Origin: a virus
Strand: one strand, 5' to 3'
IMG/VR virus record: IMGVR_UViG_3300009183_005312
Coordinates: 1 to 28,486 of that record
DNA length: 28,486 nt
The translations under genes and the position numbers were made by a program. Below are positions 4,041 to 15,638 of this stretch, piece by piece (the first letter of the stretch is position 1; the number at the start of each line of letters is the position of its first letter). Under the pieces are notes generated by a model. It saw only the letters and a program-made list of their open reading frames with translations. It ran no database searches and was not told where the DNA came from.

Positions 4041-4703
4041 ATGTTTGATCTAGCCACAGTTCCAAATATCATAGTAAAAGAAATGTCTTACAAGGAAATA
4101 GATATTGTCCGTGATATTAGAAGACCTAAAACCTATCGCCTGTTTAACAAAGGGGTGCGCCAAAATGTTCACGACCAGTTCGTCAATAGAGAAATTAAGG
4201 AAATGTATTCGCAATACGATATGGCGTATGGAGATGTGCTTTTAACTGGCTTCGGTTTCGGCGTATTAGCGCAATGGGTGGCTTCAAAGCCTGAAGTAAA
4301 GTCCGTTACAGTAATTGAATTAGAGAAAGATATTTATGATATTTTCCTTATGCATAACAAGTTACATGAAAAAGTGAACGTTATTTTTGAAGATGCCACT
4401 ACTTATACAACTGATAAACACTACGACTGCCTTTTTTTAGACCATTACGAGCATAATATAAATGAATGGGTATTCCGAGATATGCGTAGAGTTGTCCGTA
4501 ACATACCTAACCACGACCTTTTTTGGGCATGGTCTTTAGAGCAAAAAATAGCCGAAGTTGCTTATGGTCTTGAGGCTCACGGTCTTTACAATGCTCTATT
4601 GCACGATAACTATATCGATTTTTATCAAAAGTATGATTTCTTCAAAGGAAGCGTCTGCGGAATTCTCACCCTACCTGACTTAACTCCCGCAAAGATAAAC
4701 TAG
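4041..4703 (+). CDS. SpeE-like Rossmann-fold SAM/dcSAM-binding protein
   Basis: 220 residues from ATG 4041, chosen because GGGAG lies 5-8 nt upstream; an in-frame extension to 3939 would sit inside the previous gene. The central part resembles spermidine synthase and related methyltransferases: DVLLTGFGFGVLAQWVA (glycine-rich loop I), VTVIELEKDIYDIF (acidic end of strand 2), VIFEDATTY and DCLFLDHYEH. Canonical aminopropyltransferases have GGGDGG and a D-S-S-D-P type loop; here these are TGFGFG and DHYEH. Substrate and reaction are therefore uncertain. The very next gene is SpeD-like, which supports a link with decarboxylated SAM or polyamines, but a plain methyltransferase cannot be excluded. 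Confidence 0.75.
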   Translation: MFDLATVPNIIVKEMSYKEIDIVRDIRRPKTYRLFNKGVRQNVHDQFVNREIKEMYSQYDMAYGDVLLTGFGFGVLAQWVASKPEVKSVTVIELEKDIYDIFLMHNKLHEKVNVIFEDATTYTTDKHYDCLFLDHYEHNINEWVFRDMRRVVRNIPNHDLFWAWSLEQKIAEVAYGLEAHGLYNALLHDNYIDFYQKYDFFKGSVCGILTLPDLTPAKIN

Positions 4704-9625: not shown

Positions 9626-10183
9626 TCAATCAGAAATCAATTTTAGGAACTCGGCGCGTGTTTCAGGTTCAGCCCTAAAACTACCAAGCATTACTGAGGT
9701 GACCATCTCCCCAGTTTTCTTTACTCCTCTATTGCTCATACAGGTATGGTGCGACTTAATTACAACTCCTACTCCTGAGGCGTCTACATGGTCTTGAATA
9801 GCATGGGCGATATCGCTTGTAAGCCTTTCTTGGACCTGTAAGCGTTTAGCGAAGGTATCAACCACTCTAGCCAATTTACTAAGTCCTACGACCCTTCCTA
9901 CAGGGATATAGCCCACTGCGGCAGTTCCTCTGAACGCCAACATATGGTGCTCGCACATACTTACAAAAGGGATATCTTTCAGGATTACCATTTCATCATA
10001 GGGAACATCAAAGGTCGTGCCTAAAATAGTCTTAGGGTCTTCTTGATAACCTGTCGTCATCTCTTTGAGGGCTTTGATGACTCGCTTAGGAGTATCTCTT
10101 AATCCATCTCGGTCAGGGTCTTCCCCTAATGCCCTTAAAATCATTTTTACGCCGACTATGGCATTATCGTCTAGGTGTTCCAT
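9626..10183 (-). CDS. folE: GTP cyclohydrolase I
   Basis: 185 residues, complete for bacterial FolE. It converts GTP to 7,8-dihydroneopterin triphosphate, the first step to preQ0. Visible motifs are DRDGLRDTPKRV (residues 19-30), SMCEHHMLAF (zinc Cys and His), GYIPVGRVVGLSKLARVVD, RLQVQERLT and SHHTCMSNRGVKK with the second zinc Cys. All catalytic His and Cys positions appear present. ATG overlaps the queE stop (TAATG). It is the last gene of the preQ cluster and is followed by TerS. Confidence 0.96.
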   Translation of the reverse strand: MEHLDDNAIVGVKMILRALGEDPDRDGLRDTPKRVIKALKEMTTGYQEDPKTILGTTFDVPYDEMVILKDIPFVSMCEHHMLAFRGTAAVGYIPVGRVVGLSKLARVVDTFAKRLQVQERLTSDIAHAIQDHVDASGVGVVIKSHHTCMSNRGVKKTGEMVTSVMLGSFRAEPETRAEFLKLISD

Positions 10184-10902
10184 TAGTGCCCCCTACTTTG
10201 TCCCCATGCAATTACATGGAGTCTTGTTGATAAATTCCAGCCTTTTTCTACTACTGCGTCAGCCAATTTAACTGTGTTGTTTAGATGAGTTTGAGGGTCG
10301 GCTCCTTCAGGCATAATCCAAATGGCTTCTCTTGGAATTTTATAGATACGCGCTATATCTAAAACTTCATTGAGGTCGGAAGGCTTTTGGCATACGAACT
10401 TAAATACTGCTTTGCCGTCCCAAGCCAACTCGGAATAAGCGTTCATCGCCTCTAATTTAATTCTGTCCTTAAAATCGTCTCCAGCATGACCTAACTTCGG
10501 GCTGATAGTAAAAAGATTTACCGCTTGGACATAATCCTCTCTAGGAGGCAAAGTTCCATTACTTTCTATTTCGAACTCGACCATTGGCATTAAGGTCTTT
10601 AGGTAAACAATTCCGCGCTGCTGTAAAGAAGGTTCGCCACCTGTAACGATTAGGCGGTCTACCACCATCTTGTCTATCTCTTCAGCAACATCAGAGCATA
10701 AAATTCTTTTACTTTCTTCCGCTTTATCGTATTTAGTCCAATCCCAAGAGTAAGGCGTATCGCACCAACTACAAGCCAAGTTACAGCCCGCTAATCTTAA
10801 AAAGCCTACTAGGCGACCTGTATGAGGTCCTTCCCCTTGAATTGTTGGTCCAAATATCTCATTAACATTTAACGAGCGGACTTGTTTTGCTTCTTCTGTC
10901 AT
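10183..10902 (-). CDS. queE: 7-carboxy-7-deazaguanine synthase (radical SAM)
   Basis: 239 residues. It makes CDG from 6-carboxytetrahydropterin, using a [4Fe-4S] cluster and SAM. Features are the N-terminal NEIFGPTIQGEGPHTGRL, the CNLACSWCDTPYSWDW cluster motif (C-x3-C-x2-C) near residue 40, and VTGGEPSLQQ near 90. The substrate-binding Thr/Asp of CDTPYSW are kept. It overlaps queD by 4 nt (ATGA) and folE by one base, so it is co-translated with both. Confidence 0.96.
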   Translation of the reverse strand: MTEEAKQVRSLNVNEIFGPTIQGEGPHTGRLVGFLRLAGCNLACSWCDTPYSWDWTKYDKAEESKRILCSDVAEEIDKMVVDRLIVTGGEPSLQQRGIVYLKTLMPMVEFEIESNGTLPPREDYVQAVNLFTISPKLGHAGDDFKDRIKLEAMNAYSELAWDGKAVFKFVCQKPSDLNEVLDIARIYKIPREAIWIMPEGADPQTHLNNTVKLADAVVEKGWNLSTRLHVIAWGQSRGH

Positions 10903-11345
10903 GGGCGATAAATAGCCGAGTTGGAGCCGTGCTCTGCTACTTCAACCTCTATCACTCGACACCTAGGTGAGAAGCCTTGCTCCTCTAAAGTAGTTTTGGC
11001 TAATTCATACGCCACCTCTGCGAACTTTTCGCAGCCAACATCTTTTAGAATCATTAAATCGAGCACACCTGCTTGGTGTAAGCGCGAGAAAGCATCTAGT
11101 TCAGGGTCGTCAGAGGCTACAACAGTTTTATGGTCGAAAGTATTTTCAAGTCGTTTTTTTAATGCTTTCAAGCCACCAAAATCAACTACCCAATTCCGTT
11201 CATCTAGTTCGTCAGCCTCAAAAGTAAATTTGAACGCTAAAGAGTATCCATGTAAAAAATGGCAATGACTATCAAAGGCTTTCCATTGGCGAAAGGCACA
11301 ACTTAGGCCGACTTCATGGCCATATCGCTTTGTACTTCTAAACAC
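10899..11345 (-). CDS. queD: 6-carboxy-5,6,7,8-tetrahydropterin synthase (QueD)
   Basis: 148 residues from GTG 11345, which has AGAGG 4 nt upstream and overlaps queC by 8 nt; a TTG at 11360 is the alternative start. It converts dihydroneopterin triphosphate to 6-carboxytetrahydropterin. The family's first zinc region is divergent: instead of an F-x-A-A-H motif it reads LSCAFRQWKAF, followed by SHCHFLHGYSLAFKF with Cys, His and HGY. The C-terminal EVAEHGSNSAIY keeps the usual catalytic His/Glu area, and KALKKRLENTFDHKTV matches the DH motif. Context with queC, queE and folE makes the assignment firm. Confidence 0.92.
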   Translation of the reverse strand: MFRSTKRYGHEVGLSCAFRQWKAFDSHCHFLHGYSLAFKFTFEADELDERNWVVDFGGLKALKKRLENTFDHKTVVASDDPELDAFSRLHQAGVLDLMILKDVGCEKFAEVAYELAKTTLEEQGFSPRCRVIEVEVAEHGSNSAIYRP

Positions 11346-12054
11346 TTTGCCTCTTCTCAATTTCTCCTAAAGCGAACTCTATACCGCTTTCATATTCAGT
11401 AGGGTCAGTTACACCTGCCACTAGAAAGGCTTCAATTCTTTCTACGCAAGTACCGCACCTACCGCAATGGACTTCTCCACCTTTGTAGCAAGACCAAGTA
11501 AGTTCATAAGGAACTCCTAAATCATCACCTAACTTAGCAATATCGGCTTTGGTCTTTTCGATAAAAGGTGCTTCTAAATGGAACGCAGGATTGGCATGTC
11601 CTGCATTTCCTTTTATGAAAGCCTCAGATAAAGGTCCGAAGAACGCAGGACGGCAATCAGGATAGATAAAATGGTCGCCTGAATGAATTCCTGTTGCGAC
11701 TACTTCAGCCCCTTCAGCGATTCCAATAGCGGTAGTAATGCTTAACATCATGGCATTTCTGTTAGGCACAACTGTGATACGCATAGTTTCTTCCGCGTAA
11801 TGCCCATCAGGCACCACAATATCCTCAGAAGTAAGGGAACTTGTTCCAATTAAATGTTTAATTTGGCTTAAGTCAATAATAGTTACAAGGGCTTTCAACT
11901 GCTCGCCAATTTTATGCAAACTATCGAGTTCTTTTGAATGCCTTTGACCATAGTCAAAACCAACTAAATGAAGGTCATAGCCTTTAGATTTGTAGTAGTA
12001 AGCCATAGTTGCGGAGTCCATACCGCCACTAGTTACTAATGCTGCTTTAGCCAT
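11338..12054 (-). CDS. queC: 7-cyano-7-deazaguanine (preQ0) synthase
   Basis: 238 residues, full length. It ligates ammonia to CDG with ATP to form preQ0. The ATP pyrophosphatase loop is LVTSGGMDSATMA at residues 6-18, followed by GFDYGQRHSKEL. The C-terminal zinc site is WSCYKGGEVHCGRCGTCVERIEAF with four cysteines. NRNAMMLSI near residue 97 is also conserved. No glutamine amidotransferase-like domain is fused, so it is a standard QueC rather than a Gat-QueC. It follows the QueF-like gene by 7 nt. Confidence 0.96.
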   Translation of the reverse strand: MAKAALVTSGGMDSATMAYYYKSKGYDLHLVGFDYGQRHSKELDSLHKIGEQLKALVTIIDLSQIKHLIGTSSLTSEDIVVPDGHYAEETMRITVVPNRNAMMLSITTAIGIAEGAEVVATGIHSGDHFIYPDCRPAFFGPLSEAFIKGNAGHANPAFHLEAPFIEKTKADIAKLGDDLGVPYELTWSCYKGGEVHCGRCGTCVERIEAFLVAGVTDPTEYESGIEFALGEIEKRQSV

Positions 12055-12061
12055 TTTTGTA

Positions 12062-12448
12062 TTAACCTCTCACAGCAACAGAGGTCATTTGTAATCCGCC
12101 TCTTACTTGCTGAACTGTGGTTACTGTTACTGTCTTAGGCTTAATGGCTTCGAAGAAATCGTCGGCAATTTTAGCAGTGATAGCCTCACCAAACATACCT
12201 GTATTTCTAAAACTCATTAGGTAGAGTTTGAAAGATTTACTTTCAACGCAACTTTCATTAGGAACATAAGTAAGTTCCAATTCATAAATGTCGGGCTGAT
12301 TAGTAACAGGGCATAGCGCACACAGTTCTTGCGTTACAAAACTAACTGCCTTTACATTTGGCGCTGGGAATTTTTCTAACTGGTCTGCTGAAATCGAGCC
12401 ATCTACTTTATTTCCTAAGATGGTTAAGTCTTTAGTTAAATCGGTCAT
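12062..12448 (-). CDS. queF: NADPH-dependent preQ0 reductase-like protein (unimodular QueF)
   Basis: 128 residues from ATG 12448, which overlaps the yhhQ stop (TAATG); a GTG at 12472 is less likely. QueF reduces the nitrile of preQ0 to the aminomethyl of preQ1. The catalytic Cys46 and Asp53 are in ELCALCPVTNQPD, and the NADPH-binding QueF motif ESKSFKLYLMSFRN is at 69-82. The next motif, normally FHE, reads FGE here (Gly87, Glu88), so a His that lines the active site is replaced. A retained QueF motif argues for a reductase, not the archaeal amidinotransferase QueF-L, but the substitution leaves room for altered chemistry. Confidence 0.88.
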   Translation of the reverse strand: MTDLTKDLTILGNKVDGSISADQLEKFPAPNVKAVSFVTQELCALCPVTNQPDIYELELTYVPNESCVESKSFKLYLMSFRNTGMFGEAITAKIADDFFEAIKPKTVTVTTVQQVRGGLQMTSVAVRG

Positions 12449-13098
12449 TAGTCTTGGCCTTTCATGGTCCACTCGTATTTTGGTTTGATTACATAAATTA
12501 AAGGGGCAGTTACCACGGAAGTCAAATACTTAATCCAGCAGTTAGCCCAAAAGATACTAATTACAACAGCAGGCGGCAATGCTCCGCTAAAAGCAATTAA
12601 GGCAAATAAGGCTGAGTCAATAGGAACTGAGATAGCGTTACTTGCTAGCACTCTTCCATATTGATATTTTTCACCGAACTTTATTAACCATAGGCGGTAG
12701 CCTTCAGTATCTAATAGTTCAGCAATAGTCATAGCAATAATCGAAGCGGCAACTATTCTCCATGAAGGTGATAAAACCGTCGCCCATTCGTTTTGCTCTC
12801 CAACTCCCATATCAGGTGTCATGCGAGCAACAATCCAAAAAATTCCCGCCATTAAAATGTTAACTGCTGCTCCAACGAGAATAACTACTCGGCTAGCGAA
12901 GGTTCCTACTACTTTATGAACTAAATCTCTTAATGTAAAAGTAAGAGGATAGATTAAAGTTCCTGCGTCAATGGATAATCCAAATAGAGTTACAATCCGT
13001 AATGAAGCGACATTTGAGATTAGAGTACAGGCAATATAAAAACCTATTACTCCGATTAGTAAAGCGACCCAAGTTCTATTTATAGAATTGGTTTTCAT
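12448..13098 (-). CDS. yhhQ: YhhQ/VUT-family queuosine-precursor transporter
   Basis: 216 residues with about six hydrophobic segments (first at residues 10-30). TLIYPLTFTLRDLVHKVVG near residue 47 is the signature of the COG1738 family, whose E. coli member takes up preQ0 and preQ1. Further motifs are ASIIAMTIAELLDTEGY and ASNAISVPIDSALFALIAF. It would sit in the host membrane. ATG 13098 has AAAGGAGAAAGA upstream. That Shine-Dalgarno sequence is the 3' end of the preQ1 riboswitch described below, so translation is likely shut off when preQ1 is abundant. It is first in the yhhQ-queF-queC-queD-queE-folE run. Confidence 0.9.
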   Translation of the reverse strand: MKTNSINRTWVALLIGVIGFYIACTLISNVASLRIVTLFGLSIDAGTLIYPLTFTLRDLVHKVVGTFASRVVILVGAAVNILMAGIFWIVARMTPDMGVGEQNEWATVLSPSWRIVAASIIAMTIAELLDTEGYRLWLIKFGEKYQYGRVLASNAISVPIDSALFALIAFSGALPPAVVISIFWANCWIKYLTSVVTAPLIYVIKPKYEWTMKGQD

Positions 13099-13103
13099 TC
13101 TTT

Positions 13104-13140
13104 CTCCTTTGTTTTGTTAATCGGGGTTCGGCGACCCGAC
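13104..13140 (-). promoter_or_regulatory. preQ1-I riboswitch (class I) controlling yhhQ-queFCDE-folE
   Basis: On the minus strand the 48-nt gap between parB and yhhQ holds a 5-bp stem, UCGGG (13139-13135) with CCCGA (13125-13121), a loop UCGCCGAAC, and the A-rich tail UUAACAAAACAAAGGAG. As I remember the Thermoanaerobacter tengcongensis preQ1-I aptamer, the tail UUAACAAAACAA, the UCGC loop start and the C before CCC are identical, and the loop is one base shorter. The tail ends in the AAGGAG Shine-Dalgarno of yhhQ, which fits the known translational mechanism: ligand-bound pseudoknot hides the ribosome-binding site. Position and gene context both agree. Confidence 0.9.
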
Positions 13141-13145
13141 TACTT

Positions 13146-13817
13146 TTACTTACTCTCTAACAACTCTTTAATTAACAGACCTGCTGCTACTTTTGAATCG
13201 CTAGGGAATTCTTGTTTCTTTAACGCCATAGCATTTTGCCATTTTTGTTGTGTTTCAGTATCTAGAACGGCTACAACTTTATACCCTTCTTCTTCTTGCG
13301 TATAGAGTTCTTCGCCATCAATAGGGGTTTCTAATTCAGTCCAGTCGAATTTAGCAATATCTAAAATCTCGTTTAACTGTTCAGGGGTATAAGGCAGACC
13401 AATAATTAAGTTTTCACCTAATTCAGGGGATAACTCTGCTAATAAAGTTCCAAGAGAAGTTAAGTCGGCTCTTCCGCGAGTTTCGTTCATAATTACAGTT
13501 AATCGTTTGGCTCTAGCCTCATCTATAGATAAAATAATCGCAGGAATTTCTTTATTTTCTAGCAAAGTAGGAACATTGCCTTTGCCTTTTTTATTTTCAA
13601 CCGCAATTTGTTGTAAGGCCTTCCACCTATGCTCTCCATCAACTATTTCATAAAAGCCTTTTTTATCAGGGTGCTTGCGAACAATAATTGGCATAACAAA
13701 GCCGTTATCGCAAATAGATTCCATTTCAGCCGCGTATTGACGCTCTGTTTGTTTATTAGGGTTCCAAGGATTAGGGGTTACTTTTGTAATCGGTAAATTC
13801 GTTACTGCTAATTCCAT
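13146..13817 (-). CDS. ParB/Srx-fold protein, DpdB-like candidate
   Basis: 223 residues. The N-terminal ParB-like nuclease domain spans about residues 5-115: LPITKVTPNPWNPN, NGFVMPIIVRKH, and EIVDGEHRWKALQQ with the DGEHR motif at 60-64. The C-terminus is helical and acidic. No helix-turn-helix of chromosomal ParB is apparent, so it is not a partition protein. In the bacterial dpd system, DpdB is a ParB-like protein that acts with DpdA to place preQ0 into DNA. The location here, between que genes and dpdA, suggests the same partnership (inference). ATG 13817 has AGAGG 6 nt upstream. Confidence 0.85.
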   Translation of the reverse strand: MELAVTNLPITKVTPNPWNPNKQTERQYAAEMESICDNGFVMPIIVRKHPDKKGFYEIVDGEHRWKALQQIAVENKKGKGNVPTLLENKEIPAIILSIDEARAKRLTVIMNETRGRADLTSLGTLLAELSPELGENLIIGLPYTPEQLNEILDIAKFDWTELETPIDGEELYTQEEEGYKVVAVLDTETQQKWQNAMALKKQEFPSDSKVAAGLLIKELLESK

Positions 13818-14318: not shown

Positions 14319-14743
14319 GAACTGAGGCGTTCCATTACATAATACAATTTATTGTTGGCATCGCGCTGAACTTCTTTAGTCGTAAAATGATTTTTAATAT
14401 AAAAGTCGACTATCTTATCGTCTTCATTACTGACAGTTACCTCTACTCTTTTGCCAATGCTTTGGGCTTCGTCAATTAGAGCGCTTACTAAGTGGCTACC
14501 TATTTTATGATTTCGCACTGGCTTGGCCACGACTAACCTTTGAATAGTCCAAGTTGAACGGTGAAAGATTTCGAACTCTATGAAACCAACCATCAAGTTA
14601 TCCAATAGTCCTACAAATAATCTACCTTCTGCAATACTTCTAATAGTTGTGTTGGCTGGGAAAGATAAAGGACTTTTTGAGCATAACTTCATTACTCCCC
14701 GCATGTGTTTCATATCAGCAGGAATTATTTCTAGTCCCGCCAT
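14312..14743 (-). CDS. GNAT-family N-acetyltransferase (copy 2)
   Basis: 143 residues from ATG 14743, which overlaps the DpdA stop by 13 nt and aligns with the start of copy 1 (MAGLEIIPADMKHMRG against the equivalent region of copy 1). A TTG at 14797 would extend it deep into dpdA and is not preferred. The acetyl-CoA motif reads LVVAKPVRNHKIGSHLVSAL, with the canonical Q/R-x-x-G-x-G/A reduced to R-N-H-K-I-G, and motif B is DDKIVDFYIKNHF. The weaker pyrophosphate loop might lower activity or make it a partner of copy 1. Function inferred only from family and context. Confidence 0.85.
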   Translation of the reverse strand: MAGLEIIPADMKHMRGVMKLCSKSPLSFPANTTIRSIAEGRLFVGLLDNLMVGFIEFEIFHRSTWTIQRLVVAKPVRNHKIGSHLVSALIDEAQSIGKRVEVTVSNEDDKIVDFYIKNHFTTKEVQRDANNKLYYVMERLSSW

Positions 14744-15558
14744 TTCACACCACGCTTGAACCACAGATTCTGGTTGCTCGTTCCTATGTGTCTCCAATTT
14801 CGTAATCCTTCCCTAGTCATTAAGTTCATTATCTTTTCTGCTTCTTTGCCGCGTGGATTTTTTGGGAACGCAGTTTCCATGCGAACAAATCTTCCATCTT
14901 CATTTATGAACCGCCCCCACATGCTAGGGCTCATCCATGAACTACTATCAACAGAATAATAAGGGAAAGTTCTCATCAAGTTAACTGCTGTTACTGCGAG
15001 TCCGTGCATACGAGGTAAATTAGTAGGACCATATCTCTCACATAAATGCCTTAACACAGCGTTCTGCCATTTTATCTTTTCGTTTTGGTGCACATCATTA
15101 CGCGGGCTTATACATAAAATTCCGCCAACAGGCAATCTATCGCATAAAGTATCTAAAAAGACTCTCGGTTCATCTTGGTGGAACACTTCCATAACTTCAA
15201 TACCACGCCCTCTTAAATAGTCCGCGTTCTTAAGACTATCTTTCATGCCTTGGGCTCTTTCTTTCTTAGTTGAAGTTCTACCAACTTCGCCCGGAATTAC
15301 ATCTAAGTTAACTGCTTTCAAATCAGGAAACTTTTCTTTTCTTTGCAACACATATTTAGCATACTTTTCTATCTCAACTTGCTTGCCGATATTCCAAGCG
15401 GTGAATGCTCCCGAATCTATAATTAAATAATCAGGAATGTAATCTATGTTATCTAATCCTTTTGGGTAAGCAAATGAACTTAGTATGTTGGGATACTTTT
15501 CGCTGTTAATAACCGACAAAGCAGGACCTGAGGTGCCAATCGCCGCAACAATTTTCAT
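14731..15558 (-). CDS. dpdA: DpdA-like DNA-guanine transglycosylase
   Basis: 275 residues from ATG 15558, preceded by GGATAGG. An ATG at 15627 would add 23 residues (MRTAQSATEQVSD...) but has no clear ribosome-binding site; it remains possible. The protein resembles phage DpdA, a TGT-fold enzyme: YLIIDSGAFTAW (Asp48), AVNLDVIPGE (Asp86), EVMEVFHQDEP, GGILCISPRND and RMHGLAVTAVNLM, the last two matching the barrel strands that bind the deazaguanine. The enzyme swaps guanine in DNA for a 7-deazaguanine. Together with FolE-QueD-QueE-QueC-QueF it defines a complete base-modification route. Confidence 0.87.
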   Translation of the reverse strand: MKIVAAIGTSGPALSVINSEKYPNILSSFAYPKGLDNIDYIPDYLIIDSGAFTAWNIGKQVEIEKYAKYVLQRKEKFPDLKAVNLDVIPGEVGRTSTKKERAQGMKDSLKNADYLRGRGIEVMEVFHQDEPRVFLDTLCDRLPVGGILCISPRNDVHQNEKIKWQNAVLRHLCERYGPTNLPRMHGLAVTAVNLMRTFPYYSVDSSSWMSPSMWGRFINEDGRFVRMETAFPKNPRGKEAEKIMNLMTREGLRNWRHIGTSNQNLWFKRGVKWRD

Positions 15559-15638
15559 AAACCTATCCAACCACATTGGATTCCATATATCTGAAACCTG
15601 CTCAGTTGCGCTCTGCGCGGTTCGCATAAAATCTTGAT

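Follow-up and report, generated by a model that had tools for sequence, protein, structure and literature searches.

A probable Tte-like preQ1 riboswitch ahead of the 7-deazaguanine supply genes in a phage genome

Does the short hairpin in front of yhhQ in this phage genome sense the base that the phage supplies to its own DNA? The hairpin lies in the 28,486-nt stretch analyzed here (the window; IMG/VR virus record IMGVR_UViG_3300009183_005312, positions 1 to 28,486), where an earlier note, made from the sequence alone, had proposed a preQ1-I riboswitch feeding back on the phage's own DNA-modification operon. From the sequence, P1 pairing and covariation, pocket bases, Shine-Dalgarno position, gene content, and recurrence in phages, we hold with high confidence that minus-strand positions 13102 to 13144 form a preQ1 riboswitch of class I, type II (Tte-like), carried by the phage itself and most likely a translational OFF switch that would limit the supply of the base inserted by DpdA.

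The record, an uncultured contig, encodes a terminase large subunit together with the gene set of a phage DpdA-type 7-deazaguanine pathway (a dpdA homologue plus FolE, QueD, QueE, QueC, and QueF). Downstream of the hairpin, all on the minus strand, stand yhhQ, queF, queC, queD, queE, and folE; upstream are a ParB-domain gene, two acetyltransferases, and dpdA. The genes are as follows:

12448..13098, minus strand: yhhQ, preQ0/preQ1 transporter of 216 aa (PF02592, 3e-32; TIGR00697, 92.1 versus 50.95 bits)
12062..12448, minus strand: queF, preQ1 synthase (nitrile reductase; PF14489, 9e-23; TIGR03139, 107.2 bits versus a cut-off of 86.9)
11338..12054, minus strand: queC, preQ0 synthase (Pfam, PHROGs, NCBIfam)
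10899..11360, minus strand: queD (PF01242; phrog_2389, 8e-41)
10183..10902, minus strand: queE, radical SAM (Pfam, PHROGs)
9626..10183, minus strand: folE, GTP cyclohydrolase I (Pfam, PHROGs, NCBIfam)
13146..13817, minus strand: ParB_N-domain gene, directly upstream of the aptamer and not gated by it (PF02195, 2.6e-13)
14731..15627, minus strand: gene for a dpdA-like DNA transglycosylase; like the ParB_N-domain gene, it is upstream of the aptamer and not gated (phrog_887, 1.5e-31; 49.5% identity to the Mufasa8 enzyme)

These Pfam, PHROGs, and NCBIfam matches bear out the earlier assignment of the downstream genes to making or importing preQ0/preQ1. The start codon of queF overlaps the yhhQ stop (TAATG), and QueF carries the NADPH motif ESKSFKLY. 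The proposed feedback on the modification operon survives in part: import and synthesis (the supply half) lie behind the hairpin, whereas insertion does not, with dpdA and the ParB-like gene placed upstream. Relatives can carry smaller sets, namely, yhhQ-queF-queC (L084 and L085), yhhQ alone beside dpdA (L083), or queF without yhhQ (L046), and the aptamer still precedes whichever supply gene comes first. A ParB-domain gene accompanies dpdA in the relatives of the window, in Arthrobacter phage Mufasa8 (L044), and in Fusobacterium phage phiFN37 (L121); its product may work together with the transglycosylase.

The gap between the stop of the ParB-domain gene (13148-13146) and the yhhQ ATG (13098) comprises 47 nt, one fewer than previously counted, and reads AAGUAGUCGGGUCGCCGAACCCCGAUUAACAAAACAAAGGAGAAAGA on the minus strand; with the parts set apart, the minus strand here runs 5'-AAAAG-UAG-UCGGG-UCGCCGAAC-CCCGA-UUAACAAAACAAAGGAGAAAGA-AUG. 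Its predicted parts are as follows:

13102..13144, minus strand: putative class I, type II preQ1 aptamer with Shine-Dalgarno, full covariance-model match (R1, 42.2 bits, E=3e-10; RF00522, 17.2 bits, sub-threshold)
13135..13139, minus strand: P1 5' strand UCGGG, extendable to eight pairs (UAGUCGGG) in the window lineage (sequence, covariation)
13126..13134, minus strand: loop UCGCCGAAC (sequence, alignment; base roles from PMC11625349, PMC3905878)
13134, minus strand: L1 U, within the loop
13131-13129, minus strand: P2 5' strand C-C-G, within the loop
within the loop, minus strand: L2 AA, shortened (sequence)
13127-13126, minus strand: specificity cytosine C13126 and the A before it, the type II "AC" (sequence; PMC11625349)
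13121..13125, minus strand: P1 3' strand CCCGA (covariation)
13135/13125, minus strand: pocket-floor pair G13135-C13125, invariant (covariation analysis)
13111..13120, minus strand: A-rich tail UUAACAAAAC, corresponding to L3, in which C13111 would pair with G13129 in P2 (alignment to Tte-type aptamers)
13104..13109, minus strand: yhhQ Shine-Dalgarno, AAGGAG, which shares bases with the 3' end of the aptamer and forms the expression platform

The elements listed in the earlier note all occur, and in its order: a loop beginning with UCGC, a single C ahead of CCC, the UUAACAAAACAA tail, and, at 13109-13104, the Shine-Dalgarno. Type II aptamers are defined by AC before the P1 3' strand, the C being the specificity base (PMC11625349), and here A13127-C13126 precedes CCCGA; the U at the start of L1 (U13134), the G-C floor, and the A-rich L3 are likewise all present. 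The Tte switch (the Thermoanaerobacter/Caldanaerobacter queT switch) and the window share GGGUCGC..G..AACCCC..UUAACAAAACAA(A)GG, the AC before the P1 3' strand, and a Shine-Dalgarno at the 3' end. They differ in setting, the window site lying in a phage genome before yhhQ-queF-queC-queD-queE-folE and the Tte site before queT, and in detail: in the window, L2 is one base shorter, an extra A precedes GG, and A10 of Tte is C. The first two of these departures recur in bacterial leaders before queF (L020) and before queT (L026 and L035). In P2, which in Tte consists of two Watson-Crick pairs plus G8-A31 and A10-A32, the positions of G13129 and C13111 would allow them to pair, and neither varies among close relatives; the extra A displaces the Shine-Dalgarno Gs, and, with A10 changed to C, P2 geometry may differ from that of Tte. 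There is thus strong support for identifying the site as a phage-borne, Tte-like class I preQ1 aptamer that precedes yhhQ and the genes for preQ0/preQ1.

The earlier note had made a covariance search with RF00522 its test. The Rfam 15 gathering cut-off of this model is 39 bits, a curation threshold rather than a structural feature. The window site scores 17.2 bits with the full model aligned (1-45 of 45), and at the gathering score there is no match in the window and none in the own-genome family search. The earlier note would have counted such a miss as a refutation, but positive controls of the same subtype also fall short: RF00522 gives 22.7 bits for the queT leader of Caldanaerobacter subterraneus and 23.7 to 24.4 bits for Thermoanaerobacter leaders, including one (L032) whose core equals the published Tte aptamer. 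The RF00522 cut-off thus misses the whole subtype, Thermoanaerobacter/Caldanaerobacter type II aptamers included, and the miss at the window is uninformative.

A second model, R1, was trained exclusively on bacterial leaders, eight in all, of which four precede queT, three yhhQ, and one queF. Searched against the whole window with filters off, R1 finds the aptamer as its sole significant site (42.2 bits, E=3e-10; second-best site, 10.7 bits, E=0.22), and it matches all six genomes known to carry such a leader. The training leaders were collected by a sequence pattern resembling the window site, so that the core letters are partly selected and the scores of close relatives are inflated; the evidence from relatives, covariation, and controls does not depend on those letters. 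With the aptamer as query and 50,697 phage records as targets, a short blastn search returned partial, chance-level matches only, and no isolate with the element turned up in the phage collection. ViennaRNA folds P1 at -9.6 kcal/mol with a z of only -1.59, such that hairpin stability alone proves nothing.

Pairing is better judged from covariation. Across 14 phage sequences, all 70 of the 70 P1 cells are paired, and four of the five pairs show compensatory changes; the remaining pair, which forms the pocket floor, is always G-C and is invariant in all 20 sequences once bacterial leaders are added. In alignments fitted to the model, which favors P1, the covariation score is 0.760 for the phage set (versus 0.161 shuffled and ≤0.075 slid) and 0.754 for the full set (versus 0.147 shuffled). 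P1 ranges in length from five to eight pairs; in both sets it is 100% paired and shows compensatory changes, and its letters vary widely (UCGGG, UGGGG, GGGCGG, AGGCUG, GGGCAG, and CGGGG). P2 is invariant among close relatives and has no covariation support of its own; in L046, a loop UAG could pair with a tail CUA, as read by eye. The eight-pair P1 extension of the window lineage would consume part of L3 and compete with docking.

The same element occurs at thirteen further distinct phage loci, and all 14 distinct phage R1 matches with an E of ≤0.03 have their 3' ends 2 to 21 nt before the start of yhhQ, queF, or queT, on the sense strand. Among distinct yhhQ-bearing phage records, as sampled through their proteins, 12 of 25 have an R1 match and 13 do not. 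Relatives of the window (L001, L002, L003, and L046) score 39 to 49 bits; the first three are IMG/VR contigs whose YhhQ is 85 to 88% identical to that of the window, and the fourth, fetched through DpdA, lacks yhhQ and has the aptamer directly before queF. Divergent phages fetched via YhhQ or DUF6610 proteins, and hence independently of the RNA pattern, score 17 to 29.5 bits: the aptamer precedes yhhQ in L061, L062, L063, L064, L071, L106, and L115 (the last with UC in place of AC before the P1 3' strand, a type I signature) and, in L098, a protein that resembles QueT by eye and has no NCBIfam match. L005/L006 was recovered by both searches. Together with the R1 score and P1 covariation, this recurrence upholds the identification of the site as a Tte-like preQ1-I aptamer.

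Several candidates were set aside. Four matches from the first viral pattern search (L009/L011, L010, L012, and L013) are unrelated hairpins lacking the gene context, and a pattern match in L015 falls inside a phage structural region, has no P1, and is a chance match. A plausible hairpin before yhhQ in L067 was left out, at 14 bits and with U at the specificity position. A 31.9-bit match before queT in "Enterococcus phage" Efs 1-1-1 was not counted, as the assembly is unverified and its neighbors resemble host chromosome.

Could the aptamer be present by descent and no longer regulate, as a relic carried with genes of bacterial origin? Every P1 change among relatives is compensatory, as in the swap of C-G (window) to G-C (L001/L046), the pocket bases are retained in phages whose YhhQ is only about 50% identical, and the element persists before queF after yhhQ loss in L046. 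We consider such a relic improbable, even with the sub-threshold RF00522 score, the change of A10 to C, and the altered P2 spacing, all of which it would accommodate, and with regulatory function being a prediction. In the Tte switch, which belongs to the same subtype, partial occlusion of the Shine-Dalgarno reduces translation (PMC11625349, PMC3905878); the window site has its Shine-Dalgarno placed as in Tte and has no sense-strand terminator, making a translational OFF switch the natural reading.

That the RNA binds preQ1, that binding turns expression off, that the later genes are coupled to yhhQ, and that the base ends up in DNA are inferences. Under the proposed mechanism, free preQ1 would rise through YhhQ import or FolE-QueD-QueE-QueC-QueF synthesis and would pair with C13126 above the G13135-C13125 floor. 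The A-rich tail would then dock and P2 would form (G13129-C13111 plus contacts to the Shine-Dalgarno Gs), leaving the yhhQ Shine-Dalgarno less accessible. Translation of yhhQ would drop, lowering import first; queF, which starts inside the yhhQ stop, and the head-to-tail genes queC to folE would probably follow by translational coupling. The switch would thus restrict how much base is available to DpdA, encoded upstream, for insertion into phage DNA; as dpdA lies upstream of the aptamer, insertion itself would not be gated.

The modification product is probably preQ1, since QueF passes the preQ1-synthase cut-off (TIGR03139) and Streptococcus phage Dp-1, with a comparable gene set, has DNA carrying dPreQ1 (PMC6884629). 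QueF is better evidence here than the aptamer, from whose ligand the earlier note had argued for preQ1 over preQ0: the Tte aptamer favors preQ1 only 17-fold (PMC11625349), which makes it weak evidence for the product. That modest discrimination also bears on what the switch itself senses. Sensing of another 7-deazaguanine, preQ0, or of guanine, in place of preQ1 would fit with preQ0 being the preferred cargo of YhhQ (PMC10622847) and with element-bearing phages that have no nearby queF (e.g., L083), yet every pocket base named for class I preQ1 is present and the window QueF is predicted to remove preQ0 by reduction; we judge it less probable still than a relic. Least credible of all is a DNA element, either an operator or binding site for the upstream ParB-like protein or a terminator, to which an inverted repeat adjoining a ParB-domain gene and a terminator-like plus-strand stretch at 13124-13137 (such matches being at chance level in number) might point, because the conserved features are an asymmetric loop, an A-rich tail, and fixed Shine-Dalgarno spacing rather than stem letters, the same element in bacteria precedes queT, yhhQ, and queF, and the site has neither a U-tract 3' on the sense strand nor a plus-strand gene found ending there.

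A preQ1 switch sensing the phage's own supply would join two lines of work. In bacteria, preQ1 control of yhhQ (PMC5372724) and of yhhQ, queT, and que operons generally (PMC5372724, PMC11625349) is known, and phage 7-deazaguanine DNA-modification pathways have been described (PMC6884629). Bacterial yhhQ leaders (Peptococcaceae, L021; Syntrophomonadaceae, L029; Clostridiales, L033) share the aptamer subtype and the first gene with the window but are chromosomal and serve tRNA queuosine. Dp-1, Enterobacteria phage 9g, and Mufasa8 share dpdA, FolE/QueD/QueE/QueC, and QueF with the window, Mufasa8 in the same gene order; unlike the window, Dp-1, MS1, and Mufasa8 have no preQ1 aptamer in the loci searched, nor do the searched loci of phiLM21, phiFN37, HCTV-1, and RHph_N3_2. 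The account of phage 7-deazaguanine pathways (PMC6884629) makes no mention of riboswitches, and class I preQ1 reviews make no mention of phages. As in the earlier note, we found no published phage-borne preQ1 switch for DNA modification in an incomplete search of the literature. As far as could be found, then, this is a known RNA subtype (type II preQ1-I) in a new setting, a phage, before DNA-modification supply genes. The window also has a WhiB-like gene, and the phages matched by its terminase include many actinobacteriophages, though not these alone, so the host is possibly actinobacterial; in that case, the switch was probably not recently acquired from such a host, as R1 matched 0 of 296 Actinomycetota genomes at an E of ≤0.001 under strict filters.

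Some of the phages recovered carry a different gene beside the switch. In phages with no detectable dpdA (L079:8837-10027, L086:1305-2537, and L088:13948-15243), the gene immediately upstream of the aptamer and yhhQ encodes a ParB_N-DUF6610 fusion, and a DUF6610 gene whose reading frame lacks the ParB part occupies the same position in L064 (87-989). Most DUF6610 genes found in viral contigs adjoin queF, queC, or yhhQ. In L098 (2488-3042), the gene for the small membrane protein resembling QueT, with its preQ1-type aptamer directly before it, adjoins a ParB-DUF6610 gene. In a DUF6610 phage, L107, a sub-threshold SAH riboswitch match (4548-4622; 26.3 versus 37 bits) separates queF from queC and is probably due to chance.

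The AlphaFold model of DUF6610 (pLDDT 82.5) has tRNA-guanine transglycosylases as its best Foldseek matches (E 1.2e-4). Its Z of 13.9 to the Zymomonas TGT with preQ1 is close to that of an unrelated barrel, PdxJ (13.5), so that the model points to a fold class more clearly than to a family, and profile comparison found no sequence similarity between DpdA and DUF6610. From this model and its clustering with que genes in many viral contigs, DUF6610 is possibly a new 7-deazaguanine DNA transglycosylase. In Mycobacterium phage Rinkes (PQ449568.1, L127), an isolate, ParB-DUF6610 is gene 1 (1-1302) and is followed by a QueF-like gene, dpdA, queC, queD, queE, and folE; since both coexist there, DUF6610 may be a partner of DpdA rather than its replacement. 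Rinkes thus offers a cultivable system for testing DUF6610.

The switch probably allows this phage to shut off base supply when it is sufficient. More broadly, and here we lean somewhat against rather than for, many unrelated phage lineages may set the supply of their modification base by preQ1 switches before yhhQ, queF, or queT, with the inserter in part of them being not DpdA but the ParB-DUF6610 fusion directly upstream, an unrecognized branch of the transglycosylase fold. If true, a metabolite switch would belong to the regular equipment of phage DNA hypermodification. That field has been studied mainly through its enzymes, and little is known of how a phage sets the amount of a modified base, for which guanine and host tRNA queuosine are competitors. 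The aptamer would serve as a simple marker, by covariance search, for phages handling preQ1, and a preQ1 switch before the supply genes would make control of base amount directly testable with a well-understood riboswitch.
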